DNA of 64,000 bases from Canna indica. Its lineage: Eukaryota; Streptophyta; Magnoliopsida; Zingiberales; Cannaceae. The notes under the pieces were generated by a model. That model did not search any database. It was not told the origin of the DNA and worked only from the letters and a program-made list of their open reading frames with translations. Of this stretch, positions 5,116-54,434 are shown in pieces. The DNA lies in the NCBI GenBank assembly GCA_034359265.1, contig CP136896.1, positions 65,111,501-65,175,500 on the forward strand, given 5' to 3'. The stretch's first letter is position 1, and the number at the start of each line of letters is the position of its first letter. The translations under genes and the position numbers were made by a program.

Positions 5116-5178
5116 AATAGGTTCTCTGGGTAGCCTTGTTATATTTGATGATGATTCAGCGGTTGATGTTAATACAGT

Positions 5179-20025: not shown

Positions 20026-20067
20026 AGCAACGGCTTTCCCACGGACGGCCGTGGGAAAGCCGTTGCT
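20026..20067. repeat. 42-base hairpin in CACTA 1 subterminal zone
   Basis: A near-perfect palindrome with AGCAACGGCTTTCCCACGG as its left half. The same palindrome is found at equivalent positions in the other two related CACTA elements (about 33492-33533 and 47698-47739). Confidence 0.85.
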
Positions 20068-20340
20068 GATGATGTGAACCTGGTAACGAAAAAATTTAAA
20101 ATTTCCATTGATACATTGATACATTATCTGATACATAACTCACACACTCATATACTCATACACACATTCATTCACACATCACAAATACACCAAGATATAC
20201 ATCAAAACAATTATATTTATATTGATAATTATTCACAATAGTATAAAAACTATTCAAATACAAAATTGAAGTATCAATATCCAAACAAAATAAATTAAAC
20301 AAGTCCAATATCTCAGTAATAAAGTCAATATAAAAAAATC

Positions 20341-21178
20341 TCACGATGACGATGGAGGATGGTCTGGATCATATGGCGGGGTCTGGAGTGCTTGAGTGTA
20401 CACCGGCGTTGACTGACTCGAGGATGATGGATTAGATGATGCCAAAGAGATGCCTGCTTTGGGATGACTTGACATGTTGCGTAGCATAGCATGCATCTCC
20501 GCCATCATTCGACTCTGACGTGCGACCGTCTCCTATAGAGTCCTTATTCTGCTACTATGATCATAACTGGATCTAGAGGTGGACGGTCGCTCACCAGCGA
20601 CCGGAGGGGTCGGTGCCCCAAGTAGCCCTAGTACGGCTCGCGCATGACCACTATCTGCAAAGCCATATACGCGGCCATGGTCCCAGCCACCTGCGGCCTC
20701 GACCCACGTTGCTGCGTCAAAGTCCTCGGGGGTGCCCCCGCGCTGCACCACCGTCTGGCTGTAGGTCTCCTACTCGAGTTTGATTTTTTGTTTAATATTT
20801 ATCATAAAACTTAAATTATAAATATATAATGAATAATTTAAACAAATATATAGTTACCATAATGTATGCAGCGCGGTTGTCGATGTACTCCCCCGTCCCA
20901 TGTGCTCGACGGTGAGTCCGCTCAAACACCGCCATCGGGGAGGGTCGCTGGACAGTCCCGTCATCCGACACCGTCGTCTACATTTACAAAACAAATACAT
21001 TAATTAGTACACATAGTAACAAATAAAATATATAATTAAAATGTATACTTACCATACGGTTCGCGTGCACTGCAAATGCAACAGAGCCGCCGGTGTGACG
21101 CGCTGCTTCCCCCGACATGCGATTTCTAGCCGCATTCCGAGAAACCTCCTGCCATCGATCCGTCGACCATTTCTAGCC
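20341..21178 (-). pseudogene. CACTA 1 accessory gene remnant
   Basis: The minus strand carries the last exons of the second CACTA gene. The C-terminal exon lies around 20780-20341, including a VVQRGGTPEDFDAATWVEAAGGW-like segment split by later changes, with two upstream exon pieces near 20870-20980 and 21050-21178. Exons 1, 2 and most of 3 are gone: the sequence jumps from the start codon region straight into late exon 3. It cannot make the full protein. Confidence 0.75.
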
Positions 21179-21257
21179 ACATATCTGTCGAATAGACATA
21201 TAATCAGATTATTGTATAAATAGTAGAGATATATTTAATAAAATATATACTTTACAA

Positions 21258-24200: not shown

Positions 24201-24574
24201 CCAAGACTATCAAGTATCATAGTTCTATAGGGATTACATTGACTGGATGAAGAAGCACCAGCAGAGGAAGATTCACCATATGTCTGAACGAAAGGATTGC
24301 TCGACGTCCCGACTTCGCGTGACTCCCCGTGACAAGTCCATAGAAAATATCTTGGTGCAAATCCTTTGGTATATAGATGCAGAGTGACAGTCTCCCGATC
24401 CAAAAATCGTTCATTCGAACAAATGCGGCACGGACATCGGATTTGATCACCGATGCTAACGAAATTCTGATTCGAATAGGCGAAATTTAGGAAGTACGTT
24501 ACGTCTAATCGAAACTCATTCATTAAAGCTCCACGATCAAGACGTCGGTACATCCAACTTCGATCAGCCGACAT
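21258..24574 (-). pseudogene. CACTA 1 TNP2-type transposase, decayed
   Basis: It aligns along its whole length with the intact transposase at 42295-45774. Open pieces are 24574-23717 (N-terminal domain), 23557-23183, 23029-22814 and 22601-21258 (C-terminal domains and acidic tail). A TAG stop near 23717 corresponds to a Gln codon in the intact copy; further frameshifts lie between the pieces. No functional transposase is expected. Confidence 0.88.
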
Positions 24575-25569
24575 GATTCTGTCAATCAATGACAATTTCT
24601 TTGGTTAATGTCTTTAGGTGAGATTGTCTTATTCCATTTGGGATTTATGTTATTTATATTGCACTAAGTACTTATTTTAATCGCTAACTTTATTCTAAAT
24701 TTCGACAGCATCTCCCTACAGTTCTCCGAATACGCATATCATCTGGGCACGTATCGGAGAACAAGAGAGATGTTGCCGAAATTTAGAATAATTAGTTAAC
24801 AGTTAAAATAAGAACGTAAGTGCAGTACAAATAACTATATTCTCAAATTGTCCAATCAGTGATAATTCAAGAATTGTACGTCGTATAAAAGATCATCTAC
24901 TTATTTTACACGGACATACAATCCCCGAACGGATCTAAGGTTTTGCTAAATCATATCCGACTCGTCGATGCGTACGTGAAACATATCAACTCGTCGGATG
25001 GATGATTATTTTCTAAATATTTCGAGACAGTTCGAGTCCATATTGGACAATTTCGACACGAGTCTAAATTCGACGATTTCGGCAAGAGTCCGAAGTGGAC
25101 GATTCCGGCGCGCGTCCGAAGTGGACGATTCCGAAATTAATCTAAACCCTAATAATTAATCTAACAAATTAAACAATTAATCTAAATAATTAATTAACAT
25201 ATATAAAAAAAATTAAAAAAATTAAAAAAAATATAAATATGCAATTTCCGGCGCCGGAGTCCGATAGACTCCGGCGCCGGCGTACAGTGTCCGGACAGAG
25301 TGTCCGAACACTGTAAAAGCTCCGGCGGCGGCCATCGGCCGATCGTCGCCGGCCGAAACCCTAAAAATAGGGTTTCGGTCGAATTTCCCGCCGACCGCAA
25401 TGGGGAGAGACGGCCGGACGGCGATGATTACCTGAAATCGGTGGTCGAGGACGGACGGTAGCGTCGGCAGCGGCAGCTCGGCGTCGTCGGCGTCGGCAGC
25501 GGCGGCGAGAGGCGGGAGGAGGAGGCGGCGGCGGCAGCAGCGGGAGGAAGAAGGGTCGGACGCGATCTG

Positions 25570-25785
25570 CGACCTATATAAACTTATCAGCAACGGCTCA
25601 CTCGCCGTTAGAAAGCCGTTGCTAATAAGTTATCATCAACAACGGCTCGCGTGTCCGTTAGAAAGCCATTGCAGATATAGCATATCTGCAACGGCTTGAG
25701 CGGCCGTAAGAATGCCGTTGCAAATAGCAACGGCTTGAGCGGCCGTTGCTGATAGCCGTTGCTGAAGACTCAATTTCTAGTAGTA
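25570..25785. repeat. CACTA 1 transposase-side subterminal repeats
   Basis: Direct and inverted copies of CAGCAACGGC and its complement are spaced every 15-40 bases. In En/Spm-type elements such motifs are the binding sites of the accessory protein that brings the ends together. Confidence 0.75.
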
Positions 25786-25953
25786 TCTCCCTGTGGACGT
25801 AGGATCGGCACCCTGCCGAGTCTGAACCACGTTAACCCCTATGTGTGTTTTTTTTATTTTTCTGCATTATTATTATCGGATTTGGTTTTTCGCTTTTCTC
25901 GCCGAATTTAGATTTTGTAGATTCTTCAGAAAATTACTCTAAATTTCTTAACA

Positions 25954-26800
25954 TATATTGCGGAAATTGAGGAGGTGATAGAGGGAACTTGTGTTCAACT
26001 GCCCATCGGAGGTCCATTTACATGAAATCTTGTCAATACTAAAACGAAGCAGATAGTGTTGGAGATCAATAGCTGGGAGGTGCAACAGATCTCTTGGCAC
26101 AAAGTTTCAAATCAACTGAATATTGCTGTCATTGAAGGAAGCATATATAAGGGTTAGCGGCCAAGGCATATAACGCTTGGTACTTGTCCTTCAATTTGAT
26201 GCTGTTGTACTAGGAAATAGGAATCATGCCAGAACTTAACCTCCATACTGAAGCCCACATGAAAGGTGGTTGAGGCATTTAATAGATTGGGGTAGAGAGA
26301 TCTAATGATTGCGGAGTTTGGGGAAGAGGGATCTAATGATCGCCATCCAAATTGTCCCTCCATGATTCCATAGCCTCTAAAGCCAAATGCCCAATCTTGT
26401 TTTGCTTCGGACTACATGGTTTCAGAGGCCACTATAAATTAGCTTTCTAATCATGGAATCAAACGTGCGATCAACAAAACATGTTTCTTTTGCCAATACT
26501 ATTCGATAGATCACTTTTTTGATATAAAGCAAGCTCTTTTAATAGAAATGATGATGACTAGATTGTTAGTGAGAGTTAGGCAAGTAATCGTTCAAATTAC
26601 CAAACACTACTTTAGTTAAGTAAATTGTACAATTTATTATTATATAATATTTGATATCTTCATTATTATTTTGGACAAAGAAATAATAATGTCATATCAA
26701 GCAGCAAATTCTTGTAGGTAAACATATTGGATATGATACATATATGCGGGCAATATATATATAGATATACATTGTAGAGTTTATCAAATTATCACATATG
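25954..26800. other. LINE remnant continuation and P450 3' flank, copy A
   Basis: From 25954 to about 26400 the minus strand continues the LINE reverse-transcriptase tail (EVKFWHDS-like segment near 26240). From 26400 to 26800 it is AT-rich 3' flank of the P450 gene. Both parts are matched in order by 50460-51385. Confidence 0.6.
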
Positions 26801-26804
26801 ATAA

Positions 26805-28934
26805 TTAATTATGAGATTTTGCTACCAAACAAAGCGGTATTTTCTTATGCATCGTTATGCCAATGCTCTCTTCAAGATCCAACTCATCCCTTTTCATTCC
26901 TGGTGGCAATTCCCAGTCAAAGCAGTATAACAGATTAGCCAAAATGAGTTGCACCGCAGCCACTCCAAAGTTAATCCCCGGGCATATCCTTCTTCCAACT
27001 CCAAAAGGGACGAAGTCAAAATAGCTTCCTGTGAAGTCGATCTCCTTGCCGAAGAACCTCTCCGGCGAGAACTCTGCTGCATCGTTCCCCCACTTGAGGG
27101 GGTCCCTCCCAATTGCTTTTGCATTGATGAATACTCTTGTTCTCGCAGGGATTTCGTAGTCGCCAATGACGCACGTCTCAGCGGTCTCATGAGGCACCAA
27201 CAATGGCACAGGCGCATGCAATCTGAAGGTCTCATTGATTACCATCTTTAGGTAGTGGAGGTTTTGGAGGTCGGACACTTCAACCTTTCCTTTTTCTCCG
27301 ATGAGGTACCTTATCTCTCTTTGCACTTGATTCATGACTCTAGGATTTCTCATGAGTTCAGTCATTGCCCATATAGTAGTAGCTGCAGATGTGTCAGTTC
27401 CTGCGATAAATATATCCTACAAATACAAAAGCCCAATTAATTCTTGTAGTTGTTATATATATGTAGGATAAGATCTAGGTAGATATATTATGACATTGTT
27501 TAAGTAACTTTTCCTAGAAAATTGTATTTTCTATGAATTGAATTTGCACAGCAAATAGAAATGAATTTGCACAGCATGTTTTGTTGATTTGAGTATTTTC
27601 CATAAAATATACATCAAATGACCGATATTCTCTTCATTTTTAAAATTAAAATTTATTTTTTCTTCAAAATTAATTGATAAAATTTATATTTTGATATATA
27701 TAGATAATATATAATCTTTCATATATTATAATTAAACTGAAATAGAATTGCTACGTTTTTGGTGTAAATGACAAATGATTGTCCCCCACGGCCCCACGTC
27801 CTTTGACATTTCAACCCATCTTTTGAATACTTAATAATATATCCTTTGGCTTACATATAATTATCTACCACAATTAGAGATCTTCTCTAGATTCTGATCA
27901 ATCTGGTGCAGAGTAAAATAAAGAAAAAAATATGTAAGCTGGTGCTAGATCTTGAAATATATATAATATAGCTAACTAATTAAATTGATATATCATTGAA
28001 TCAAATTCTGCTAATTAAATATACTTACCGTCAACAGACCCTTGATATGATCCATACTACTGAACGTCTTCCTGTGCGTTGGATCCTCGAGCAGCCGAAG
28101 CAACACGTGCACCATGTCCACGTGCTCCGAGGATGGCTCTTTCTTCAGGTGCTCTTCAATCACCTGGTTGTAGAAACCATCCAACTCCTTGAACACCTTC
28201 TCCACCCTCGCCTGCAGCCCGTCCAGGCCGTGAATCCACCTCATCCAGGGAAAGAAATCGCCCACGCAGAAACCCCCCAACACGTCCTGTGCCTCCGCCA
28301 GAACCCGGTGGATTTCGACGCCTCCGCCTCCGCCGCCGCCACCTCCATGCTTTTCGCCGAACGCCGCGCGGCACACGATGCTGTTCGCCATGGAGAGCAC
28401 CATCTTGCTCAAATCGATCGTCGACGACAACGACGACGAAGAAGAAGAGTGCTCCCGGATGGAGTCCACGACGCGAGCTACTTCCTCCTCTCTAACCTTC
28501 CGGAAGGACTCCACCCGCTTCGCGCTCAGCAGCTCCACCATCATGACCTTGCGCGCCATCCGCCAGTACCCTCCGGGCGGCGCGAAGACCACGCCCAAGA
28601 GCCCGTAGGAGAGCTTCTTGGCGGCGAACAGGGCCGGGCGGCCGGAGAAAGCGAGGTCGTGGTGCCTGATGACCTCGCGGGCGGCGTCGCTGGAGGAGAT
28701 GACGAGGGTCGGAATGGAGCCGAGGCGAAGGAACATGAGAGGCCCGTGCTCGGCGGCCATCTCGGTGAGGGTGACCAGAGGGGCTGCCCCGAGTTGGTGG
28801 AGGTTCCCGATGATGGGGAGCTGCGGCGGCCCCGGCGGAAGTTTTCTGCTCCTTCTCCTTCTGCCATGACCGAGGAGGAAGAGAATTAGAGGAAATGAGA
28901 AGAGGAGGCAGAAGATAACAGTGTGCGGTGCCAT
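26805..28934 (-). CDS. Cytochrome P450, CYP71-like, two exons
   Basis: Exon 1 is the complement of 28029-28934 and exon 2 the complement of 26805-27416, with a 612-base phase-0 intron (donor GGTAAGTAT, acceptor TTTGTAG). The predicted length is 505 residues, normal for the family. Order: an N-terminal membrane anchor, a basic halt, the proline hinge KLPPGPPQLPIIGN, the C-helix WRMAR, the I-helix AGTDTSAATT (just after the exon junction), the K-helix ETFR, FSPERF and the heme-cysteine loop FVPFGVGRRICPG. It would be an endoplasmic-reticulum mono-oxygenase of specialised metabolism; the substrate cannot be told. A glycine run in exon 1 is unusual but in frame. A gypsy element begins only about 68 bases upstream of the ATG, so most of the ancestral promoter has been replaced. 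Confidence 0.93.
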
Positions 28935-28967
28935 GAAGAAGTCGCAAGTACGGTGGAATCATTGGAA

Positions 28968-28980: not shown

Positions 28981-29959
28981 GAAAAAAGGATATGAATTCA
29001 TGGTCCCCAGGAGATCCCCAACGCCGAATAAACGATTTGGAGGATGAAAGCCAACGGCTAACAATCTGAATCGAGACGTTGACATGGTCCCGTGAATAAT
29101 TCCTAGCTGGCCATGAGCGCCACCGCTCGGAGCATGGAGATCGAAAGCAATCACTATAGGAAGAGAAGATCAGTTCCCGTCCCTCACGACGAGGTCTCCA
29201 ACACCCCGTCCTAAAAAACACTACTAGAAACTTGGTCTTCAGCAACGGCCGCTCAAGCCGTTGCTATTTGCAACGGCATTCTTACGGCCGCCCGAGCCGT
29301 TGCAGATATTTGTATCTGCAACGGCGTTCTAACGGAAACCCGAGCCATTCCGGATTATTTTAATTATCAGCAACGGCTTTCTGACGGAAAGTCGAGCCGT
29401 TGCTGATAGTTTAATTATCAGCAACGGCTTGCTAACGGATAAGTGAGCCGTTGCTGATGATAACTTATCAGCAACGGCTTTCTAACGGGCGAGTGAGCCG
29501 TTGCTGATAAGTTTATATAGGGCACTCTCTCGTGTCCGACCCTTCTTCCTCCCGCTGCTGCCGCCGCCGCTCCTGCCGACTCCTCTCGTTGCCACTGCCG
29601 CTGCTGCCGACGACGCCTCCCGCTGCTGCCGACGCTGTCAGGTATGTGCCCTACGACTGCCGTCTCTTCCCGTTGCCCTCCGACACATTCCGGTAGAAAT
29701 TTCGACCGAAACCCTAAAAATAGGGTTTCGGCCGGCGGCGGTCGGCCGATGGCCGCCGCCGGACCTTGTACATTGGCCGGACAGTGTGTCCGGCCAGTGT
29801 ACGCCGGCGCCGGAGTCCACCTGACTCCGGCGCCGGAATTTGTAGTTTAATATTATTTTATTATTGTTTTTAATAGTTTTTAATTGTGAATTAATTATTT
29901 AGATTAATTAATTAATTTCTTAGAATAATTTTTAGGGTTTAGATTAATTTCGGAATTAT

Positions 29960-30118
29960 CCACTTCGGACGCGCGCCGGAATCGTCCAATTCGGACTCGC
30001 GCCGGAATCGTCCACTTCGGACGCGCGCCAGAATCGTCCAATTCGGACTCAGGCCGGAATCGTCCACTTCGGACGCGCGCCGGAATCCTCCAATTCGAAC
30101 TCGCGCCGGAATCGTCCC
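29960..30118. repeat. 26-base tandem repeat array, CACTA 2
   Basis: About six copies of a 26-base unit built around GGAATCGTCCACTTCGGAC followed by a CGCGCGCC-like spacer. Alternate copies have AATTCGGACT. The array ends exactly at the internal deletion junction. Confidence 0.85.
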
Positions 30119-31603
30119 GATGGATATGCTTCAAACTTATCTCGATGTGTGAACGTCGATGATTGCAAAATATCAGGGATGAAGAGCCATGATTGTCATG
30201 TATTCATGCAGAGATTACTTCTGATCGCATTTCGAGATCTTCTACCTGATAATATTTAGGGTCCGTTGACTGAATTAAGTATGTTTTTTAGAAGCATCTG
30301 TGCAAATGTCCTTCGAGTCGAAGATATGTCAACACTTAAAAATAATATTGTTGAAATCATATGCAAGCTGGAGCAGTTTTTCCCTTCTGCATTTTTTGAC
30401 TCGATGGAGCATCTACCGATACACTTGGCATACGAGGCACGAGTTGGTGGCCCCGTTCAATATCGTTGGATGTACTTATTTGAAAGATACATGAATCGTC
30501 TGAAGAAAAAAGTAAAGAACACCACAGTTGTTGAATGATCAATATCTGAATCGTATATCATCCAAGAAATTTCAATATTCTGCTCATTTTACTTTGAATC
30601 GACAGTACAGACAAGATTTGATCGTCTTCCACGTAATGACGACGGGGGTGTTCGACATTCAGATAGACGTTTAAATATATTTTGTCACTCTGGTCGTGCT
30701 TTTGGTTCTCGTCCATCTCGACACTTAAGCGATGAAGAGTATCATTTGGCACACTTGTATGTATTACTCAATTGTCCAGAGTTTGAACAATTCATTGAAA
30801 TATTTGACATTGAGATGGTGCAAAAATACTCTATTCACAACGATCAAGAATTGGAGAGATTACGGAATCGTGATTTCCCTACTTGGATTCAGACTTACAG
30901 CAAAGATCACAGAGCTGAAATAGATGATAGAATATTTGAGTTTGTTAGTGGACCGTCGCGACTTGTGTCGTGCCATAGCGGATATTTTGTTAACGGGTAT
31001 AAATTTCACACGGTTGAATATTCATTTGCAAAGAAGACGATGAATGCTGGGGTCTGCGTGAAAGGGACAACCTATGTTGAATGTGATATGGATTTTTATG
31101 GACTGGTCGAAGAAGTGATAGAGTTGCACTACTTCGGCTTGAAATCAGTGATCCTATTTAGATGTCATTGGTTCGATACAACAGAAAGGGGCATGAAAGT
31201 TCATCCAAAATACAAACTTGTTGTGGTTAATTACAAATCGAAATTGGCAGCAAATGAGCCTTTTATATTGGCATCACAAGCCGAACAAGTATATTACGCG
31301 AAGTATCCGGCTCGAAATAAAGATAGAGCGGATTGGCGTGTAGTCTGTAAGACAAAAGGTAGAGGAAAAATTGATCCGATAGTAGGAGAAAATGATCCTC
31401 CTGGTTTTTATCAAGAAGATGATCTTCCTGCTGTGGATCGTATTATTCCAATACTCGAGGATGCAGACACAACGTCAATTCAATTAGAAGTTGAATATGC
31501 TGATGATGACGATCATGAAATTGAGGAAGCTGGAGATGAAGAAGATGAAGAAGAGGAAGAAGAAGAAGAATTCGAAGACTATTATTCAGATGATGAGGAA
31601 TAA
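30119..31603 (+). pseudogene. CACTA 2 truncated TNP2-type transposase
   Basis: Only the C-terminal 500 or so residues of the transposase remain. A TAG replaces a Trp codon near 30258, and a TGA occurs near 30536. From 30746 to 31603 the frame is open to the acidic tail. The N-terminal zinc-binding and catalytic regions are missing, so no active enzyme is possible. Confidence 0.9.
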
Positions 31604-31678
31604 TTATAAAGTATATATTTTATTAAATATATCTCTACTATTTATACAATAATCTGATTATATGTATGTTCGACAGAT

Positions 31679-33192
31679 ATGTTTGGTCGTGGTTATCGAC
31701 GCAGGAGAGCTTCGGAGTCTCCGATCGGTGAGACTCTAGCACTTACTCATGCTGCTGATCCTCTTGTTGCTGATCCTCATGAGGATGATACTATCGAGGC
31801 TAGTACATCCAGACGCAGGCGGCCACGCGGGCCGAACAGGTGGCAGCCTCCACCAGCCACAGAGTCACGTAGATTGATTAGCGTGATTGGGGAGCGGTAA
31901 TATATCATGAATTATGAATCATTACAAATTCATTATATCATAATATAATATTAAAATTTATTTTTGTTGTGCAGGTTCGAGCAAGAAGAAGTGCCGAGGA
32001 GCATTTCTTCTACTATCCGACGATACATGCATGGGGCATGGCTTACGTGGTCTCACGTGCCTAGCGAGCACGTCGACATGTTATGGCGCGAGTTTGAGGC
32101 ACGTATTATTATTTTTTTTTACATGCATGATGATATATTAATATTGGTACTGATATTATTATTTTGCAGGCTCGCTATACATAGGCCGAGGACCAGAGGC
32201 CCTTCATTTACGCTGCCTGGGAGGCTATTTCCCGGGCAAGGTACAACGGGCACCTGGGGCAGGCTCGGTCCCAAGCGATGGCCCGAGCTGGGACCACTAA
32301 CATCGCGGAGACTCGGGGATACGGCCCCGGTTGGATTACTCCGGATATATGGGACCAGCTCGTGGGGATATGGTGGACGGATCGATGGCAGGAGGTTTCT
32401 TGGAATGCGGCTAGAAATCGCATGTCGGGGGGAGCAGCGCGTCACACCGGCGGCTCTGTTGCATTTGCAGTGCACGCAAACCGTATGGTAAGTATATCGT
32501 TTAATTATATATTTTATTTGTTATTATGTGTACTAATAAATGTATTTGTTTTGTAAATGTAGACGACGGTGTCGGATGACGGGAGTGTCCAGCGACCCTC
32601 CCCGATGGCGGTGTTTGAGCGGACTCACCGTCGAGCACATGGGACGGGGGAGTACATCCACAACCGCGCTGCATACATTATGTTAATTATATATTTGTTT
32701 AAGTTATTCATTATATATTTATAATTTAAGTTTTATGATAAATATTAAACAAAAAATCAAACTCGAGTAGGAGACCTACAGCCAGACGGTGGTGCAGCGC
32801 GGGGTACCCCCGAGGACTTTGACGCAGCATCGTGGGTCGAGGCCGCAGGTGGCTGGGACCATGGCCGCGTATATGGCTTCGCAGATAGTGGTCATGCGCG
32901 AGCCTTGCTAGGGCCACTTGGGGCACCGACCCCTCCGGTCGCTGGTGAGCGGCCGTCCACCTCTAGATCCAATTATGATCATAGTAGCAGAATAAGGACT
33001 CTAGAGGAGACGGTCGCGCGTCAGAGTCAGATGATGGAGGAGATGCATGCTATGCTACGCAACATGTCAGGTCATCCCGCAGCAGACATCTCTTCGGCAT
33101 CATCTAATCCATCGTCCTCGACTCAGTCCACGCCGGTGTACACTCAAGCACTCCAGACCCCGCCATATGATCCAGACCATCCTCCATCGTGA
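31679..33192 (+). pseudogene. CACTA 2 accessory gene with nonsense and frameshift
   Basis: The five-exon layout of the intact element is recognisable: 31679-31896, 31975-32098, 32170-32487, from 32563, and 32771-33192. In exon 3 a TAG (about 32182) stands where the intact copy has a Trp codon. One G is lost at the exon 4 donor, and one G is lost in exon 5 near 32801. The exon sizes otherwise match exactly, which supports the gene model of the intact element. Confidence 0.8.
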
Positions 33193-33845
33193 TCGTGAGA
33201 TTTTTTATTTGGATATTGAACTTGTTACTGAGATATTGAACTTGTTTAACTTATTTTGTTTGGATATTGATACTTCAATTTTGCATTTGAATTATTTTTA
33301 TACTATCGTGGACAATTATCAATATAAATATAATTGTTTTGATGTATATCTTGGTGTGTTTGTGATGTGTGAATGAATGTGTGTATGAGGGTATGGGTGT
33401 GTGAGTTATGTATCAGATAATGTATCAATGTATCAATGTATCAATGGAAATTAGAAATTGTAAATTTTTCTGCTTGCAGGTGAACATCATCTGCAACGGC
33501 TTTCCCACGGCCGTCCGTGGGAAAGCCGTTGCTAAAAGTGTATCGAAAGTCGTTGCTGATGACCTACAGCCACGGCTTAGCGACGGGGTTTTACTAACGG
33601 CGTTGCTACGGACTCGTGGCCGTTGCTATTAATTTTATCAGCAACGGCTGCGGGTCTGTGGCAAAACCGTCGCTGATAATATTTTGAGCGACGGCCCGAG
33701 CGGCCGTTGCTGATCTGTTGCTAAGTCATCAGCAACGCGACTTTCTGTCACGGCACTATTGCAACGGCTAGGCCGTTGCTGATGCACTTCAGCAACGGCT
33801 CAGCAACGGCATCAGCCGTTGCTGATGGCCATTTTTCTAGTAGTG

Positions 33846-39210: not shown

Positions 39211-40839
39211 ACTTGGATTTAGATCAGGACTGAATGGAAAAAAAAGAAGATTAAAGACTTGATCGAGTTTACTCCTATTTTTACTCGAACTAGTTAACTT
39301 CAATGGTGTTGTTGCATATATAAAATTCCATAGGCAAATTAATATTTTTTTTGAAAAGACATTATTGCCAATTTAAAATATATCTAAAATTGAGAATATA
39401 TGTCATGTAAAGCCAATGACTTCTCTGTGATAAGGATGGAGTGAATTGGAGTGAATTTTTGTTGATGTGCATCTTTTCGAGCGTTGGGTAGAACAGGACG
39501 TCGACTGAGCTCCCCCGGTCTACCAGAACTTTCCTAACAAGAAAAGCACCAGCGATTACGAAAATAACAATTGGGTCATGCATGTTCCTGTCAATTTGTT
39601 GAAAGTCAGATTCATAAAAAGATATTACGGGGGCATGATAGCTTGGAGTGATTTCTCTATGGCCGAGCTTGTCTCGCCTTCGCCGGCGAATCTGCCTGCA
39701 ATGTAATCGATGACTCCATGGATTTCAGAGTTGGGCTGCTCGGCTCTACAACCATTGTGATTGCTTGTCGTGTTGCGAGGTGGCGGTGTCCTGCTCGTAC
39801 TTTGGCGCCGATGGTCGTGGTTGCGCCAATCTCGGTTGCGGCTTTGTTTGTGACGAACATAGTAGTCGAGGCGGCCTTCTCTGACCAAGCGCTCAATTTG
39901 ATCTCGAGCATCACACACTCCTCGGTCGCGTGCCAATAGGTTCGTTGGAACTCGCATCTTTTGCTCTTGTCGACATTGGTGGATAGATTTGGCCTCTATG
40001 GGTCGCGAGGAGGCCTAACCAGCTGCAGATGGTAGACATCCTATAGAATGGTCTCTCGTCTAGTGTTGAGGGGAGTGTACTCGTCGAACTAGGGAATAGG
40101 CCTGGAGGACGTCCTCCCTCTCCTATTGTGATCCTTGTCGCGATGGTCACTGTCTTCACCCTTTCTATTGGGCCTCTTGCCCTTTTTGTCCTCGGTGGCA
40201 TCTTTAGCATTCTACCTGGCATCTTTGGCGTCCTCGGTGCCCTTTCTATCAGGTCGACTCGGCCATGTCCTTCAGCTTCGCCAAGGCGATCTGGTTCACA
40301 AAGTGTTCAGGTTTTAAACCATGCTTGATAGAGAACAGCTCGACGTGTGGGGTCGATATTTGGGATCTCCATGGCCATGACTTGAAATCTCTTTATGTAA
40401 TCTCTTAAGGACTCGTGTTACCCTTGCTTGATGTAGTGGAGGACGTCTTTAGTATCCTGGACGAGGAGAATTGGCTGGTGAAGGCGCGAGGGAGTTCCTC
40501 GAAGGTGTGCATGGATCTTGCTGGGAGGGAAGATTACCATAGTAGCGCGGCTTTCTCCAAAAAGGTTGGAAAGGCTCGGTAGAGGATGACGTTGGTTGCT
40601 CTGTTGAGAAGCATCATGGACCTGAACATCATCAGGTATGTGGTCGGATCGCCCATGTCGTCATAGGGCTTCAGTGTGGTCGGTAGCTTGAATCTAGGCG
40701 GAGGACATACCACCATGATGTGCCCAACGAAGGGTCATGAGTCGACAGGGAGAGGAGGGGTAGCCTCCGTGACCCTGGTGTCCTTCTCTTCTGCCGGGTG
40801 AGGTGTGCGGGACACTACTAGAAACTTGGTCTTCAGCAA

Positions 40840-41125
40840 CGGCTATCAGCAACGGCCGCTCAAGCCGTTGCTATTTGCAACGGCATTCTTACGGCCGCCC
40901 GAGCCGTTGCAGATATATGTATCTGCAACGGCGTTCTAACGGAAAACCGAGCCGTTGCTGATTATTTTAATTATCAGCAACGGCTTTCGGACGGAAAGGC
41001 GAGCCGTTGCTGATTTTTTAATTTTCAGCAACGGCTTGCTAACGGATAAGTGAGCCGTTGCTGATGATAACTTATCAGCAACGGCTTTCTAACGGGCGAG
41101 TGAGCCGTTGCTGATAAGTTTATAT
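40840..41125. repeat. CACTA 3 left subterminal repeat array
   Basis: A dozen or more copies of CAGCAACGGC and its complement GCCGTTGCTG lie in the first 310 bases. In the En/Spm group, motifs like these bind the accessory protein and are essential for transposition and for its regulation by methylation. Confidence 0.85.
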
Positions 41126-41437
41126 AGGGCACGCTCTCGCGCCCGACCCTTCTTCCTCCCGCTGCTGCCGCCGCCGCCTCCTGCCGAGAACTTCGCCGCT
41201 GCTGCCGTTGCTGCCGACGCCGACGCCTCTCGCCGCCGCGCCGCTGCCGCTGCTGCCGGTATGTTGATCGGCCGGCCTATACGGTTTCGGCCGGAGATGT
41301 TAAAATCCGACCGAAACCCTATTTCTAGGGTTTCGGCCGGCGGCGGTCGGCCTATGGCCGCCGCCGGACCTTCTACAGTGGCCGGACAGTGTGTCCGGCC
41401 ACTGTACGCCGGCGCCGGAGGGTGGACTCCGGCGCCG

Positions 41438-41439
<2 letters not shown>

Positions 41440-41491
<52 letters not shown>
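41440..41491. repeat. (TA)n microsatellite
   Basis: About 26 TA units directly after the GC-rich leader of CACTA 3. The equivalent place in CACTA 1 and 2 has ordinary AT-rich sequence, so the expansion is private to this copy. Confidence 0.95.
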
Positions 41492-41495
<4 letters not shown>

Positions 41496-41584
41496 TTTGA
41501 AATTGTTAATTAATTATTTTATAAATGTTAATTAATTGTTTAGATTAATTGTTTAATTTGTTAGATTAATTATTAGGGTTTAGA

Positions 41585-41825
41585 TTAATTTCGGACGCGC
41601 GCCGGAATCGTCCACTTCGGACGCGCGCCGGAATCGTCCAATTCGGACTCGCGCCGGAATCGTCCAATTCGGACTCGCGCCGGAATCGTCCACTTCGGAC
41701 GCGCGCCGGAATCGTCCAATTCGGACTCGCGCCGGAATCGTCCACTTCGGACGCACGCCGGAATCGTCCAATTCGGACTCGCGCCGGAATCGTCCACTTC
41801 GGACGCGCGCCGAAATCGTCCAATA
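41585..41825. repeat. 26-base tandem repeat array, CACTA 3
   Basis: About nine units based on GGAATCGTCCACTTCGGAC plus a CGCGCGCC spacer. The unit contains GTCC...GGAC half-sites in inverted orientation. CACTA 2 has about six units and CACTA 1 about three decayed ones (25050-25130). It lies between the leader and the transposase start. Confidence 0.9.
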
Positions 41826-42030
41826 TGGACTCGAACTGTCTCAAAACATTTAGAAAATAATCATCCATCCGACGAGTTGATATGTTTCACGTACGCATCG
41901 ATCAGTCGGATATGATTTAGCAAAACCTTAGATCCGTTCGGGGATTGTATGTTCGTGTAAAAGAAGTAGATGATCTTTTATACGACGTACAATTCTTGAA
42001 TTGTCCCTGATTGGACAATTTGGGAATATA

Positions 42031-42220
42031 GTTATTTGTACTGCACTTACGTTTTTATTTTAACTGTTAACTAATTATTCTAAATTTCGGCAACATCTCT
42101 CTTGTTCTCCGATACGCGCCCAGATGATATGCGTATTCGGAGAACTGTAGGGAGATGCTGTCGAAATTTAGAATAATTAGTTAACAGTTAAAATAAAAAC
42201 GTAAGTGCAGTACGAATAAC
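42031..42220. repeat. 190-base palindrome upstream of the transposase
   Basis: Two arms of about 88 bases, almost perfect inverted copies (GTTATTTGTACTGCACTTAC at the left tip and its complement at the right), separated by about 14 bases. It ends 74 bases before the transposase ATG. CACTA 1 has the same structure at about 24650-24830. It may be an old MITE domesticated within the element, or part of its promoter or leader. Confidence 0.88.
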
Positions 42221-42294
42221 ATAAATCCCGAATGGAATAGGACCATCTCACCTAAAGACATTAACCAAAGAAATTGTCATTGATTGACAGAATC

Positions 42295-45200
42295 ATGTCG
42301 GCTGATCGAAGTTGGATGTACCGACGTTTTGATCATGGAGCTTTAACGAATGAGTTTCGATTAGGCGTAACGTACTTCCTAAATTTCGCCTATTCGAATC
42401 GGAATTTCGTTAGCATGGGTGATCAAATCCGATGTCCGTGCCGCATTTGTTCGAATGGCCGATTTTTGGATCGGGAGACTGTCACTCTGCATCTATATAC
42501 CAAAGGATTTGCACCAAGATATTTTCTATGGACTTGTCACGGGGAGTCACGCGAAGTCGGGACGTCGAGCAATCCTGTCGTTCAGACATATGGTGAATCT
42601 TCCTCTGCTGGTGCTTCTTCATCCGGTCAATGTAATCCCTATAGAACTATGATACTTGATAGTCTTGGGGGTCAATTCCACCTGAATGATAATGTTGATC
42701 GGCCAGTTCTTCAGACATCAGTCCCACCAGATACTACAGCGGTTGATATCACAGAAGTAGGGGCTGCGGTAGAGATTGAATTACCGAATAAAGAAGCTGC
42801 AGAATTTTACGAGATGTTGAAAGCTGCCGATGAACCTTTGTATGAGAATTGTCCTAAATACACTAGGTTTTCAGCAATGACACAGCTCTTAAACATCAAG
42901 GCCGATTGTAATATCAGCGGAGTTGCGTATGATCGGATTGCTGGATTGATTAATGGAATGCTGCCTACTGATAACAAGTTTGAGCCTACTTTTTATAAGA
43001 CTAAAAAGCTAATGAGAAAATTGGGGCTTGGGTACGAAAAAATACACGCGTGCCAAAATAACTGCATTTTATATTATAAAGAAAATGTGCAGTTGGATAA
43101 ATGCCCTGTATGTCAACACCCTCGTTACAAGGAGAAGAAATCGGTCCGACAGAAAAATATCCCGTTTAAGGTGCTTCGGTATTTTCCACTAACACCGAGG
43201 CTTCAAAGATTATTCATGTCGGAAAAGACAGCCCCCTACATGAGTTGGCATGCAAGAAGTCGTGATGATACAGTAATGACTCATCCATCTGACAGTGAAG
43301 CATGGAAACATTTGGATACATGTTATCCTTCATTTGCTATGGATACTAGAAATATCAGATTGGGATTGTGCACAGATGGTTTTAATCCGTTTGGGCATTC
43401 TGCAACTCCTTATTCAGTTTGGCCAGTGCTGCTGACAGTTTATAATTTGCCACCGTCAATGTGCATGAAAGATGAATTTATTTATCTTTCGATGATTATT
43501 CCGGGTCCTAAGGGTCCGCGAAAAGAAATTGACATATTTCTCAGACCCTTGATAGATGAATTGAAAACATTGTGGACTGAGGGAGCTGTCACTTATGATT
43601 GTCATCGGAAGCAAAACTTCAATTTAAAGGCCGCGGTCTTGTGGACAATCAATGATTTCCCCGCGTACGGCATGTTGTCGGGTTGGAGCACTCACGGCCG
43701 ACTCTCTTGCCCGTATTGTATGGAACACTCTAAATCAATCAGTCTTCAGAACGGACGAAAAATCTCATTCTTTGATTGTCATCGTCGATTCCTACCGGTT
43801 CATCACCAGTATCGAAGGAATCGTAATAAATTTACTAAGGGCAGAGTCGAAAGAGATGGGCCACCACCGATGTTGTCTGGTGAACAAATGTTAGCACGTG
43901 TTTCAGCACTTCCAGATATAGTATTTGGTCGCAATGAAAGAGTGTCAGGTTTTGGCCAAACACACAACTGGGTGAAAAAAAGTATCTTTTGGGAATTGCC
44001 CTATTGGAGTTCATTATTGATTCGACATAATTTAGATGTCATGCACATTGAAAAAAATGTGTTTGATAATATTTTCAACACTGTGATGGATATTTCTGGA
44101 AAAACTAAAGATAATGTCAAAGCCCGACATGATCTGAAAATACTTTGTAAAAGACCAGAGTTGGAGTTACAAGAGGTCAACGGACGATATCTGAAACCGA
44201 AGGCCCTATATGTGTTAAATAAACAACAGATCAAAGATGTTTGTCAATGGGTAAAAGAACTCAGATTACCCGATGGATATGCTTCAAACTTATCTCGATG
44301 TGTGAACGTCGATGATTGCAAAATATCAGGGATGAAGAGCCATGATTGTCATGTATTCATGCAGAGATTACTTCCGATCGCATTTCGAGATCTTCTACCT
44401 GATAATATTTGGGGTCCGTTGACTGAATTAAGTATGTTTTTTAGAAGCATCTGTGCAAATGTCCTTCGAGTCGAAGATATGTCAACACTTGAAAATAATA
44501 TTGTTGAAATCATATGCAAGCTGGAGCAGTTTTTCCCTCCTGCATTTTTTGACTCGATGGAGCATCTACCGATACACTTGGCATACGAGACACGAGTTGG
44601 TGGCCCCGTTCAATATCGTTGGATGTACTTATTTGAAAGATACATGAATCGTCTGAAGAAAAAAGTAAAGAACACCGCAGCTGTTGAAGGATCAATATCT
44701 GAATCGTATATCATCCAAGAAATTTCAACATTCTGCTCATTTTACTTTGAATCGACAGTACAGACAAGATTTGATCGTCTTCCACGTAACGACGACGGGG
44801 GTGTTCGACATTCAGATGGACGTTTAAATATATTTTCTCACTCTGGTCGTGCTTTTGGTTCTCGTCCATCTCGACACTTAAGCGATGAAGAGTATCATTT
44901 GGCACACTTATATGTATTACTCAATTGTCCAGAGATTGAACAATTCATTGAAATATTTGACATTGAGATGGTGCAAAAATACTCTATTCACAACGATCAA
45001 GAATTGGAGACATTACGGAATCGTGATTTCCCTACATGGATTCAGACTTACAGCAAAGATCACAGAGCTGAAATAGATGAAAGAATATTTGAGTTTGTTA
45101 GTGGACCGTCGCGACTTGTGTTGTGCTATAGCGGATATTTTGTTAACGGGTATAAATTTCACACGGTTGAATATGCATTTACAAATAAGACGATGAATGC

Positions 45201-45774
45201 TAGGGTCTGCGTGAAAGGGACAACCTATGCTGAATGTGATATGGATTTTTATGGACTGGTGGAAGAAGTGATAGAGTTGCACTACTTCGGCTTGAAATCG
45301 GTGATCCTATTTAGATGTCATTGGTTCGATACAACAGAAAGGGGCATGAAAGTTCATCCAAAATACAAACTTATTGAGATTAATTACAAATCGAAATTGG
45401 CAGCAAATGAGCCATTTATATTGGCATCACAAGCCGAACAAGTATATTACGCGAAGTATCCGGCTCAAAATAAAGATAGAGCAGATTGGCGTGTAGTCTG
45501 TAAGACAAAAGGTAGAGGAAAAATTGATCCGATAGTAGGAGAAAATGATCCTCCTGGTTTCTATCAAGAAGATGATCTTCCTGCTGTGGATCGTATTATT
45601 CCAATACTCGAGGATGCAGACACAACGTCAATTCAATTAGAAGTTGAATATGCTGATGATGACGATAATGAAATTGAGGAAGCTGGAGATGAAGAAGATG
45701 AAGAAGAGGAAGAAGAGGAAGAAGAGGAAGAAGAAGAAGAATTCGAAGACTATTATTCAGATGATGAAGAATAA
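42295..45774 (+). CDS. TNP2-type CACTA transposase, intact
   Basis: Cuts and moves CACTA (En/Spm) elements by recognising their terminal repeats. It has 1159 residues from the ATG. The N-terminus has the Transpos_assoc zinc-binding pattern (a CRICSNGRFL segment with flanking C and H). A Transposase_21 core follows from about residue 260 to 520, including the SCPYCMEHSKS region. The DVMHIEKNVFDNI segment marks the following conserved part, then come DUF4218-like (about 700-790) and DUF4216-like (about 960-1040) regions and a run of Glu ending FEDYYSDDEE. The frame is open with no stop. It is the same protein that is broken at 21258-24574 and truncated at 30119-31603. The ATG at 42295 matches the start retained in CACTA 1. 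Confidence 0.95.
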   Translation: MSADRSWMYRRFDHGALTNEFRLGVTYFLNFAYSNRNFVSMGDQIRCPCRICSNGRFLDRETVTLHLYTKGFAPRYFLWTCHGESREVGTSSNPVVQTYGESSSAGASSSGQCNPYRTMILDSLGGQFHLNDNVDRPVLQTSVPPDTTAVDITEVGAAVEIELPNKEAAEFYEMLKAADEPLYENCPKYTRFSAMTQLLNIKADCNISGVAYDRIAGLINGMLPTDNKFEPTFYKTKKLMRKLGLGYEKIHACQNNCILYYKENVQLDKCPVCQHPRYKEKKSVRQKNIPFKVLRYFPLTPRLQRLFMSEKTAPYMSWHARSRDDTVMTHPSDSEAWKHLDTCYPSFAMDTRNIRLGLCTDGFNPFGHSATPYSVWPVLLTVYNLPPSMCMKDEFIYLSMIIPGPKGPRKEIDIFLRPLIDELKTLWTEGAVTYDCHRKQNFNLKAAVLWTINDFPAYGMLSGWSTHGRLSCPYCMEHSKSISLQNGRKISFFDCHRRFLPVHHQYRRNRNKFTKGRVERDGPPPMLSGEQMLARVSALPDIVFGRNERVSGFGQTHNWVKKSIFWELPYWSSLLIRHNLDVMHIEKNVFDNIFNTVMDISGKTKDNVKARHDLKILCKRPELELQEVNGRYLKPKALYVLNKQQIKDVCQWVKELRLPDGYASNLSRCVNVDDCKISGMKSHDCHVFMQRLLPIAFRDLLPDNIWGPLTELSMFFRSICANVLRVEDMSTLENNIVEIICKLEQFFPPAFFDSMEHLPIHLAYETRVGGPVQYRWMYLFERYMNRLKKKVKNTAAVEGSISESYIIQEISTFCSFYFESTVQTRFDRLPRNDDGGVRHSDGRLNIFSHSGRAFGSRPSRHLSDEEYHLAHLYVLLNCPEIEQFIEIFDIEMVQKYSIHNDQELETLRNRDFPTWIQTYSKDHRAEIDERIFEFVSGPSRLVLCYSGYFVNGYKFHTVEYAFTNKTMNARVCVKGTTYAECDMDFYGLVEEVIELHYFGLKSVILFRCHWFDTTERGMKVHPKYKLIEINYKSKLAANEPFILASQAEQVYYAKYPAQNKDRADWRVVCKTKGRGKIDPIVGENDPPGFYQEDDLPAVDRIIPILEDADTTSIQLEVEYADDDDNEIEEAGDEEDEEEEEEEEEEEEEEFEDYYSDDEE

Positions 45775-45849
45775 TTGTAAAGTATATATTTTATTAAATA
45801 TATCTCTACTATTTATACAATAATCTGATTATATGTCTGTTCGACAGAT

Positions 45850-47386
45850 ATGTCTGGTCGTGGTTATCGACGCAGGAGAGTTTCGGAGTCTCCGATCGGT
45901 GAGACTCCAGCACTTACTAATGCTGCTGATCCTCCAGTTGCTGATCCTCATGAGGATGATACTGCCGAGGCTAGTACATCCAGATGCAGGCGGCCACGCA
46001 GGCCGAACAGGTGGCAGCCTCCACCGGCCACAGAGTCACGTAGATTTATTAGCGTGATTGGGGAGCGGTAATATATCATGAATTATGAATCATTATAAAT
46101 TCATTATATCATAATATAATATTTTTAAAAAAAATTGTTGTGCAGGTTTGAGCAAGAAGAAGTGCCGAGGAGCATTTCTTCTACTATTCGACGATATATG
46201 CACGGGGCATGGCCTACGTGGTCTCACGTGCCTAGCGAGCACGTCGACATGTTATGGCGCGAGTTTGAGGCAAGTATTATTATTTTTTTTACATGCATGA
46301 TGATTAATATTGGTACTGATATTATTATTTTGCAGGCTCGCTATACATGGGCCGAGGACCAGAGGTCCTTCATTTACGCTGCCTGGGAGTCTATTTCCCG
46401 GGCAAGGTACAACGGGCAGCTGGGGCAGGCTCGGTCCCGAGCGATGGCCCGAGCTGGGACCACTAACATCGCGGAGACTCGGGGATACGGCCCCAGTTGG
46501 ATTACTCCGGATATATGGGACCAGCTCGTGGGGATATGGTCGACGGATCGATGGCAGGAGGTTTCTCAGAATGCGGCTAGAAATCGCAAGTCGGGGGGAG
46601 CAGCGCGTCACACCGGCGGCTCTGTTGCATTTGCAGTGCACGCAAACCGTATGGTAAGTATATCTTTTAATTATATATTTTATTTGTTATTATGTGTACT
46701 AATTAATGTATTTGTTTTGTAAATGTAGACGACGGTGTCGGATGACGGGACTGTCCAGCGACCCTCCCCGATGGCAATGTTTGAGCGGACTCACCGTCGA
46801 GCACATGGGACTGGGGAGTACATCCACAACCGCGCTGCATACATTATGGTAATTATATATTTGTTTAAATTATTCATTATATATTTATAATTTAAGTTTT
46901 ATGATAAATATTAAACAAAAAATCAAACTCGAGTAGGAGACCTACAGCCAGACGGTGGTGCAGCGTGGGGGTACCCCCGAGGACTTTGACGCAGCATCGT
47001 GGGTCGAGGCCGCAGGTGGCTGGGACCATGGCCGCGTATATGGCTTCGCAGATAGTGGTCATGCGCGAGCCGTACTAGGGCCACTTGGGGCACCGACCCC
47101 TCCGGTCGCTGGTGAGCGGCCGTCCACCTCCAGATCTAGTTATGATCATAGTAATAGGATAAGGACACTAGAGGAGACGGTCGCGCGTCAGACTGAGTTG
47201 ATGGAGCGCCAGAGTCAGACGATGGCGAATATAGAAGCTATGCTACGCAACTTGTCGGGTCATCCCGAAGCAGGCATCTCTTCGGCATCATCTAATCCAT
47301 CATCCTCGAGTCAGTCCACGCCGGTGTACACTCAAGCACTCCAGACCCCGCCATATGATCCAGGCCATCCTCCATCGTCATCGTGA
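45850..47386 (+). CDS. CACTA accessory protein (Ptta/En/Spm family), five exons
   Basis: Exons 45850-46067, 46146-46269, 46336-46653, 46729-46848 and 46937-47386 join in frame to 409 residues. Introns 1, 3 and 4 are GT-AG; intron 2 has a GC donor in the strong context GAG|GCAAGT. The protein has an Arg-rich start, a central Transposase_24 (plant Ptta/En/Spm) region around exons 2-4 and a Ser/Pro-rich tail with a heptad-like stretch RTLEETVARQTELMERQSQ that may form a coiled coil. Such proteins act as the DNA-binding partner of the transposase on subterminal repeats. It lies 75 bases after the transposase stop in the same orientation. Confidence 0.85.
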
Positions 47387-47697
47387 GATTTTGTTTATAT
47401 TGACTTTGTTACTCAGATATTGAACTTGTTTAATTTATATTGACTATGTTACTCAGATGTTGATACTTCAATTTTACATTTGAATTGTGTTTATACTATC
47501 GTGGATAATTATGAATATAAGTATAATTGTTTTGATGTATATCTTGGTGTGTTTGTGATGTGTGAATGAATGTGTATGAGATGTTTGTGATGTGTGTATG
47601 AGGGTATGGGTGTGTGAGTTATGTATCAGATAAATGTATCAATGTATCAACGGAAATTAGAAATTTGAAATATTTCTGTTTGCAGGTATGGGTCATC

Positions 47698-47739
47698 AGC
47701 AACGGCTTTCCCACGGCCGTCCGTGGGAAAGCCGTTGCT
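47698..47739. repeat. 42-base hairpin in CACTA 3 right subterminal zone
   Basis: A perfect or near-perfect palindrome with the left arm AGCAACGGCTTTCCCACGG, at the inner border of the right subterminal array. It is conserved in CACTA 1 and 2. Confidence 0.88.
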
Positions 47740-48498
47740 AAAAGTGTATCGACAACCGTTGCTGATGACCTACAGCAACGGCTTAGCGACGGGTTTTTAC
47801 TAACGGCTTGGCTACGGACTCGAGGCCGTTGCTATTAATATTATCAGCAACGGCTCCGGTTCCGTGGTAAAACCGTTGCTGAAAATATTTTTAGCGACGG
47901 CCCAGCGGCCGTTGCTGATAATTTTTAGAGCGACGGCCCGAGCGGCCGTTGCTGATCCGTTGCTAAGTCATCAGCAACGCGACTTTCTGTCACGGCTTTA
48001 TTGCAACGGCTCAGCCGTTGCTGATTCCCTTCAGCAACGGCATCAGCCGTTGCTGATGACCATTTTTCTAGTAGTGGGAGACCTCATCCTGAAGGATGGA
48101 AACCGGTCTCCTCCTCTCCGACTGGTTGTATTCTTCGTGCTCTGAGCCATGGTGCCCGTGTTCAGTTGGGAATTATTCTCGGGACCACGTCAGCATCTTG
48201 ACCTAGGCTTTTAACCATAGGTTCTTCGTCTGAAAGTCGTTTATCAGACGCTGGAATTCTTCTAGTGAGGGTTGGTTTGTGCCAGAGCGTCACTCCTCAC
48301 TATTTCAGCATCACAATGTAGCAGGGGAACAACTCCACCAGAGCGTTGTTGACGTGCAATAGTGATCGTCTGGCTTCGGGTACCAATCATTGTGGGGCAA
48401 ATAAGATTTACTTGACCTCAATTTGAATTAATTAGATTATTTATTTTCATTAAATTTAATTAAGGATGATAAATTTAGCACGTGCGTTTTGGTCAATG

Positions 48499-51389: not shown

Positions 51390-52238
51390 TTAATTATAAG
51401 GTTTTGCTACTAAACAAAGCGGTATTTTCTTATGCATTGTTATGCCAAAGCTCTCTTCAAGATCCAACTCATCCCTTTTCATTCCCGGTGGCATTTCCCA
51501 GTCAAAGCAGTATAACAGATTAGCCAAAATGAGTTGCACCGCAGCCACTCCAAAGTTAATCCCCGGGCATATCCTTCTTCCAACTCCAAAAGGGACGAAG
51601 TCAAAATAGCTTCCTGTGAAGTCGATCTCCTTGCCGAAGAACCTCTCCGGCGAGAACTCTGCTGCATCGTTCCCCCACTTGAGGGGGTCCCTCCCAATTG
51701 CATTTGCATTGATCAAATCGATCGTCGACGACAACGACGACGAAGAAGAAGAGTGCTCCCGGATGGAGTCCACGACGCTAGCTACTTCCTCCTCTCTAAC
51801 CTTCCGGAAGAACTGCACCCGCTTCGCGCTCAGCAGCTCCACCATCATGACCTTACGCGCCATCCGCCAGTACCCTCCGGGCGGCGCGAAGGCCACGTCC
51901 AAGAGCTCGTAGGTGAGCTTCTTGGCGGCGAACAGGACCGGGCGGGCGGAGAAAGAAAGGTCGTGGTGCTTGATGACCTCGCGGGCGGCGTCGCTGGAGG
52001 AGATGACGAGGGTCGGAATGGAGCCGAGGCGAAGGAACATGAGAGGCCCGTGCTCGGCGGCCATCTCGGTGAGGGTGACCTGAGGTGCTGCCCCGAGTTG
52101 GTGGAGGTTCCCGATGATGGGGAGCTGCGGCGACCCCGGCGGAAGTTTTCCGCTCCTTCTCCTTCTGCCATGACCGAGGAGGAAGAGGATTAGAGGAACT
52201 GAGAAGAGGAGGCAGAAGATAACAGTGTGCGGTGCCAT
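51390..52238 (-). pseudogene. P450 with internal in-frame deletion
   Basis: A single 282-codon frame made from the first 180 or so residues and the last 100 residues of the CYP71-like gene. The join lies at about 51713-51716, where exon 1 (LSSTIDL) meets exon 2 (INANAIGRDPLKWG). The deleted part corresponds to about 27129-28408 of the intact copy: it includes the intron, the I-helix and the ExxR helix. The heme-cysteine loop and membrane anchor remain. Without the I-helix and ExxR it cannot be a working P450. A few bases of shared GAT sequence at the join fit a microhomology-mediated deletion. The frame is preserved, so a short protein could still be made. Confidence 0.9.
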
Positions 52239-52529
52239 GAAGAAGTCGCACGTACGGTGGAATCAATGGGAAAAAACTTATATAAGGGATAAATGGATAG
52301 ATTCATGTTCATTCATTTTTCATCCAGGTTAATATCCATTCCTATTCAATATAATATTAAAAGAAAATATAAAAGACACGTGTACGGATGATGAAGTAGA
52401 TAGTGCTTGAATCCAAATGATTTATGCAATGCGCAAACGTGAAAATAATCACGTATTGAAAAGGAAAGCTTGCAAAATTAGTGTGAATAACTTCAACGTT
52501 GGGGTAAGCAAAACTCGAACCGACTCTAA

Positions 52530-53193: not shown

Positions 53194-53443
53194 TAATAGT
53201 TTGAAAAAACCAATTCGAATTGTCCAAACCGATCCGAAGAAGTCGCACGTAGTGTGGAATCAATGCGGGCGACCGCTTTCGGAGTTAAATTGAAACTTTG
53301 GAAGCTAAGCTATATATACAACGTATGCCTATGCACCAAGTGGGCAAGTATGAAACGGCAACATAATTAACTATGGATAGTACGATGGATGGTAACATAT
53401 TATAAGTTGTTTAGAAATTTATAATTCGATTCTTAATATAATT

Positions 53444-54434
53444 TGTTAGTAAATTTGGAGTAATTTCCTGCAGGATCTACAAAACCCGAACCCGACGAGA
53501 AAAGCGGAAAACCAAATCCAATAATAATAATGTAGGAAAAACAAAAGACACAAGGGGGTTAACGTGATTCGGACTCGGCGGGGTGCCGATCCTACGTCCA
53601 CAGGGAGAAGAGAAGATTGTTTTATAAAATCCAGAAAAGAACTTTTACAATAAGAGTGCAATAATCTAAATCCCCTTCAGAATACAGCAAACTATCTTAA
53701 ATTAATTGAACCTGAAACTGGTACGGAGTAGAGGCACTGTCTCTGCAAGATCTGCCTTGAAACTGAACTCCTGCTGCTGTATGTCAGAAACAGAGAAGGG
53801 GCACTCCTTAGGAAAAGGGTCGTAGTGGCACTCTTAATTTTCTGGATCTTTGAAACTCTCATATGAGGAATTTTCTCTTGGTGTGGGATTTCTCTTCGTG
53901 ATCGATTCTCTTAGAACTGCATATTAGGCCCTTATTTATAATAGATGGGGAGAGCCGATTCATGTCTACTTTAGTGGAGAAAAAATTTCCAAGGAATTTG
54001 CTGCTCCGTCTGATTTAATCGGATGACTGAAATACTTCTTTTGACCAAAGAAACTTTCAAAATGCTTGGTGGCTTCACGTGATGTCTCCACCTTTTTCTC
54101 CATTTGACTAGTCAAAAGCAATATTTGATTTTCACATCATCAATTTGAAAACTTCTGAAGTTATTATTAATTTGAAAACTTTTATGTGTGCCGCTGCAAC
54201 ATTGACATGGGTATCTTGAGAAGATGATGGGATGGGCTCCCAGGCCCATGATTATAAAATCATAATTTATTTTGATCAAATCCGGTTCAACATGGTTCAA
54301 TCAAATTGACAAATTGGTTCAAGCATATCTTGATCAAATCAACTCCGATTTGAATCTGATCGAACTCGTTGGATTCGATTCGGACCCAATTTGAATCAAT
54401 CTTTAACATGATCATCTATTGTGACTCTCTAACA
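53444..54434 (-). repeat. Solo LTR, copia-like, sister of the CACTA 1 host LTR
   Basis: The plus strand starts TGTTAG and ends CTAACA. In reverse complement it matches 18773-19710 plus 25786-25953 throughout, including the uninterrupted stretch TCTTCTCCCTGTGGACG near 53600, which is the empty target of CACTA 1. Length 991 bases. A five-base flanking duplication is not evident (TAATT and AAAAA). Confidence 0.85.

Follow-up and report, generated by a model that had tools for sequence, protein, structure and literature searches.

The 64,000-nt stretch of Canna indica DNA analysed here (assembly GCA_034359265.1, contig CP136896.1, 65,111,501-65,175,500 of the forward strand; hereafter the window, in which all positions are counted) contains a complete CACTA (En/Spm-type) transposon, element A, together with two broken relatives, B and C. 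Element A and its principal parts are:

40813-48076, + strand: element A, a complete CACTA transposon of En/Spm type (7,264 bp)
40810-40812: 5' target-site duplication, GGA
40813-40844, + strand: 5' terminal inverted repeat
40834-41113: 5' subterminal array with 12 motifs of the CAGCAACGG type, both orientations being present
42295-45774, + strand: tnpD, transposase of 1,159 amino acids in a single ATG-to-stop frame
45850-46067, + strand: tnpA-like gene, exon 1
46146-46269, + strand: tnpA-like gene, exon 2 (its downstream intron is GC-AG)
46336-46653, + strand: tnpA-like gene, exon 3
46729-46848, + strand: tnpA-like gene, exon 4
46937-47386, + strand: tnpA-like gene, exon 5, including the stop codon
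47697-48055: 3' subterminal array with 14 motifs of the CAGCAACGG type, both orientations being present
48045-48076, - strand: 3' terminal inverted repeat
48077-48079: 3' target-site duplication, GGA

Structure of element A and its relatives

Observed directly in A were its ends and target-site duplication, the subterminal arrays, both open frames, and the protein domains with their conserved residues. The boundaries and the GGA duplication proposed in the first-pass annotation are both exact, and the terminal repeats, which it had called exact, are so over the first 12 bp only (CACTACTAGAAA, starting with CACTA), identity over 32 bp being 91%. Counted in both orientations with at most one mismatch, the CAGCAACGG motif has 12 occurrences within the first 330 bp of A, 14 within the last 420 bp and five in between, as compared to four in the 46 kb of window sequence not belonging to A, B or C. 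Arrays of this kind are as expected for putative binding sites of a TnpA-type protein.

The two genes were also as annotated. The 1159-codon transposase gene runs uninterrupted from ATG to stop, and its product carries Transpos_assoc, Transposase_21, DUF4218 and DUF4216, the four domains of plant CACTA transposases. The five accessory exons join to 1,230 nt, i.e. 409 codons and a stop, without internal stops, across three GT-AG introns and the GC-AG intron 2, and the 409-residue product carries Transposase_24 (E 1.2e-18). With its CACTA ends, 3-bp duplication, Transposase_21-containing TnpD, Transposase_24 partner and subterminal repeats at both ends, A is a CACTA/En-Spm element and a further copy of a known type. 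It resembles maize En/Spm in its CACTA ends, 3-bp target-site duplication, subterminal repeats in both orientations and the placement of tnpD (Transposase_21) upstream of a multi-exon tnpA. Unlike maize En/Spm, where tnpA has 11 exons, A has five coding exons in its tnpA-like gene, a single-exon tnpD and the motif CAGCAACGG. In the lettuce LsC1 study (PMC8195511), tnpD and tnpA candidates are filtered by Transposase_21 and Transposase_24, both of which are present in A. For LsC1 and other characterised CACTA elements, such as that of soybean (PMC2613891), there is genetic or expression evidence, whereas A is known from sequence alone.

The relatives and an empty site are located as follows:

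19711-25785, - strand: relative B, target-site duplication TCT, both genes broken, 5' terminal base mutated
29219-33845, + strand: relative C, target-site duplication AAA, ends intact, 2,475 alignment columns missing including the tnpD start
53435-53895, - strand: empty site paralogous to that of B, with one TCT; sequence spanning the junction 83.6% identical

B and C are insertions separate from A, each with its own target-site duplication, and GGA, TCT and AAA (in A, B and C, respectively) together support a duplication of 3 bp. For B the insertion is shown directly, since its flanks (19411-26088) are duplicated on the opposite strand at the empty site, where a single TCT is found. Over aligned sites, B and C are 93.9% and 94.1% identical to A. 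That both relatives are broken in both genes, as annotated, is borne out in A's register: tnpD of B has seven stops, two deletions and two insertions (one frame-shifting), and its tnpA two stops and a 530-base coding deletion; tnpD of C lacks 1,974 coding bases including the start and has two stops in the remainder, and its tnpA has two stops and a one-base deletion. Some of the shorter length differences concern stretches of A lacking in B and C, namely the acidic (GAA/GAG) tail of TnpD (45687-45741), which is longer in A, and 21 bases of the accessory gene at about 47189-47209, missing from both.

A and C each lie within copies of one retroelement-like repeat family, and a third copy at about 15383-16883 aligns over both junctions at 65-70% identity. 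In this shared alignment the insertions of A (40812/48080) and C (29218/33849), judged by eye, are about 20 bp apart and in opposite orientations; target preference and coincidence are both possible explanations.

The transposase and its putative BAH-like C-terminal region

The best-ranked match of TnpD is only 49% identical. Among 55 relatives, 211 columns are conserved to at least 90%, and A agrees at 206 of these; in a leave-one-out comparison, 10 relatives deviate less than A, two equally and 43 more. All five deviations are common to B (C lacks the region) and hence belong to the lineage rather than to A, for which reason we rejected the idea that they disable it. The putative catalytic residues D361, D454 and E781 and the zinc ligands C472, C475, H757 and H761, conserved in 52-55 of the 55 relatives, are all present in A. 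D454 and E781 were assigned from this conservation, from spacings that we take to be those of RAG1, and from the zinc-ligand rule. By this rule (PMC12730594), the CMCT motif has C(2)C and H(3-4)H placed after the second D and before the last E, and C472/C475 and H757/H761 are positioned in this manner between D454 and E781. TnpD has the RAG1-like catalytic fold of RAG1/Transib-like CMCT transposases, while differing from CMCT transposases and RAG1/Transib in its low identity (about 10%) and in an additional N-terminal Transpos_assoc region and C-terminal BAH-like region.

No transposase was recovered among solved structures searched with the TnpD sequence (three chance-level rows) or with the alignment A2, composed of full-length rather than domain-only rows (one row). 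In viral contigs, 18 stretches fit the pattern of TnpD relatives and none was confirmed. A contig search for such relatives returned plant-like sequence inside bacterial records in two of 49 stretches: a plant-type CACTA transposase relative at 5938-9255 of L007, a contig whose record names Candidatus Burkholderia humilis, and a second relative, L008, in a Peptostreptococcaceae metagenome-assembled genome. Both are probably plant contamination.

The C-terminal region is placed as follows:

44839-45501, + strand: BAH-like fold in AlphaFold models, TnpD residues 849-1069

Its second half is annotated as DUF4216. The Pfam BAH profile gave no report on TnpD at E up to 10, although HMMER filters can drop weak matches, and hhalign of the region against BAH returned a probability of 1.7. 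As there is no recognisable BAH sequence profile, we call the region BAH-like and do not place it in the BAH family. W1010, Y986 and F955, candidates by sequence for an aromatic cage, are kept as aromatics, and the key aromatic positions hold in all aligned relatives with a residue there (71-73 of 73), those that are named being plants. RAG2 recognises chromatin for RAG1 through its PHD finger, and the modelled fold raises the possibility, somewhat unlikely in our estimate, that the C-terminal region of TnpD is a BAH-like chromatin reader with a comparable role, tethering the transposase to a histone mark. The broader proposition, that plant CACTA transposases, TnpD of A among them, carry a BAH-like methyl-histone reader at the C-terminus of a RAG1-like catalytic core, so that CACTA elements choose or recognise chromatin directly, with the leader hairpin of A (see below) adding a self-encoded small-RNA layer, we hold as a tentative and unlikely one. 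A non-exhaustive literature search returned no printed link of BAH to a CACTA transposase, and the term 'BAH domain' is absent from two Chenopodium CACTA papers. The BAH-like tail is the part that could be new, as a property of the family and not specifically of A; if real, it would provide a testable mechanism relating CACTA elements to chromatin, reaching well beyond this copy.

Proposed expression and the hairpin of the putative leader intron

Upstream of the two genes, the following features were identified:

41121-41126, + strand: TATA-like box, in A, B and C, with a putative promoter role
41130-41258, + strand: putative untranslated GC-rich leader exon, donor GT at 41259
41590-41824: 26-bp minisatellite, nine copies, in the putative leader intron
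42018-42233, + strand: long hairpin of the putative leader intron, its two arms of 85 nt being 89% complementary
42289-42290, + strand: putative splice acceptor (AG) for tnpD, separated by four bases from its ATG; A and B are identical here, and C has a deletion
45846-45847, + strand: putative splice acceptor (AG) for tnpA, separated by two bases from its ATG at 45850; present in all three elements

The TATA-like box directly follows the 5' subterminal array, and the GC content over 41130-41260 is 0.76. The leader of En/Spm is GC-rich and untranslated, and we liken the putative leader of A to it. In maize En/Spm, according to PMC8195511, tnpA and tnpD arise as alternatively spliced transcripts; the candidate donor and the two candidate acceptors of A have this type of layout.

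Based on these features, we propose that A, a cut-and-paste transposon of the CACTA (En/Spm) class with its structure intact, probably works as En/Spm does; the promoter, splicing, binding and present activity in what follows are what we infer from the DNA. A promoter among the 5' subterminal repeats would drive a single transcript. Splicing of the GC-rich leader exon to the acceptor at 42290 would yield TnpD, or alternatively, splicing to 45847 would skip tnpD and yield the TnpA-like protein. The latter would bind the CAGCAACGG arrays of both ends and pair them, and the RAG1-like DDE core of TnpD (D361, D454 and E781) would cut at CACTA and insert with a 3-bp duplication.

The hairpin (arms 42018-42102 and 42149-42233) may have a role of its own. 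Rice CACTA elements carry pre-miR820, and miR820 targets OsDRM2, as described in PMC3459959, and a stem-loop inside a CACTA element is likewise found in A. By this precedent the hairpin of A would be a functional small-RNA precursor directed at silencing genes of the host or at the element itself, a reading that we judge to be improbable. It agrees with the fold of 42010-42240, which has a minimum free energy of -136.1 kcal/mol (z -22.7) not equalled in any of 200 shuffles, and with a core (42075-42176, limits chosen after viewing the alignment) where A and B differ at one of 102 sites, compared to 116 of 703 in the part of the leader that precedes the hairpin (Fisher P 1.3e-6). However, the adjoining stretches are about as conserved, with six differences in 168 sites upstream (41850-42017) and two in 61 just downstream. 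The hairpin of B also folds more weakly (-93.8), and of A's 97 pairs, 82 are unchanged in B, six changed on one side, five broken and three gapped, and a single pair is changed on both sides. Moreover, the likeness to the rice element extends only to the stem-loop, that of A being located in a putative leader intron, and hairpins are common: the method of PMC10760457 detects them, mostly towards the termini, in 32.52% of the CACTA elements of maize. No match was found in the window at Rfam gathering thresholds, and all six matches of hairpin 21-mers elsewhere in the window have three mismatches. In the distant relative L007, the inverted repeats found include a perfect hairpin with 31-nt arms (4583-4647), which precedes the tnpD frame (5938-8226) by about 1.3 kb, and none with arms as long as those of A.

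The outer 3' arm of B differs from A (42177-42233) at 10 of 54 sites, which also speaks against a functional precursor. In A this arm pairs almost perfectly with the 5' arm; the hairpin of A may have been corrected through templated palindrome repair, or that of B may have decayed. An 18-base pattern from the core matches six viral contigs, by estimate roughly at chance level, and a literature search for strings of the hairpin sequence returned nothing related.

Integrity of A and other features of the window

At the level of sequence, there is support for the suggestion of a complete A that may still be autonomous: both genes are open, the catalytic and zinc residues are kept, and ends and arrays are intact, making A a candidate for autonomy. 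C, with intact termini and 10 and 13 CAGCAACGG-type motifs, could be a client of enzyme supplied by A. The 5' terminus of B reads TACTA, and the first CAC triplet is indispensable in ProtoRAG (PMC8289069), so that by analogy B would be a poor client. An intact A beside two broken relatives, C with intact ends and B with a damaged end, constitutes a natural test set for trans-mobilisation.

Equally, A may be structurally intact and dead, either epigenetically silenced or disabled by missense or promoter changes that escaped detection, and as such a fossil lacking stops by chance; we assign this an even chance. Branch changes polarised with the three copies over both genes (716 codons on the A branch) gave the following ratios of nonsynonymous to synonymous rates (dN/dS): about 0.48 for A (24 nonsynonymous, 14 synonymous and no nonsense changes), 0.48 for B (31, 18 and two) and 0.98 for C (21, six and three), the last from few changes. 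Several observations weigh against a working A. Its dN/dS equals that of the broken B and, for tnpD alone, is 0.62 compared to 0.49 in B. In the accessory gene, exons are conserved no better than introns, with 42 of 676 (6.2%) and four of 163 (2.5%) sites differing, respectively, between A and B, and 56 of 1,205 (4.6%) and 15 of 307 (4.9%) between A and C. Stronger purifying selection as a mark of A being the active copy was therefore rejected. Only three relatives of the accessory protein, the best 26% identical over 53%, were found among 7,475 candidates, and homology to so few and distant proteins does not allow its completeness to be judged. In addition, the candidate leader donor sits within diverged sequence, and A has private differences at 101 of the 3,713 sites aligned in all three copies, so that it cannot have been freshly copied from B or C. 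The leader hairpin could also feed small-RNA silencing.

In simulations of neutral substitution, 10.3% of the runs were free of nonsense changes at 60 changes and 2% at 100, with A's rate scaled to both genes corresponding to about 83 changes. The probability of a nonsense-free A under neutrality, just 0.02-0.10, is counted on the side of the fossil, and as a test favouring intactness the comparison is suggestive only. Against a dead A, none of its five deviations from conserved TnpD residues is private, and C to T or G to A changes, the type expected from methylation decay, make up 28 of its 101 private changes versus 64 of 154 in B, though C is similar to A (29 of 103). CpG observed/expected is 1.22 in A versus 0.92 in the window outside the three elements, but as B (1.23) and C (1.22) are alike, A is not singled out.

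Elsewhere in the window, open frames at 1312-5916 (- strand), with zinc-knuckle and reverse-transcriptase motifs recognised by eye, resemble an endogenous pararetrovirus, and CpG observed/expected in this region is only 0.48. Cytochrome P450 genes are duplicated at 26805-28958 and 51390-52262 (both - strand), the latter copy having a shortened frame that joins the first and last parts. Finally, an open reading frame at 7573-8877 (+ strand) encodes a SOBIR1-like kinase, whose four best matches, among the best 120 of 580, are from coconut, banana and oil palm; its proximity to palms and banana suggests a monocot.

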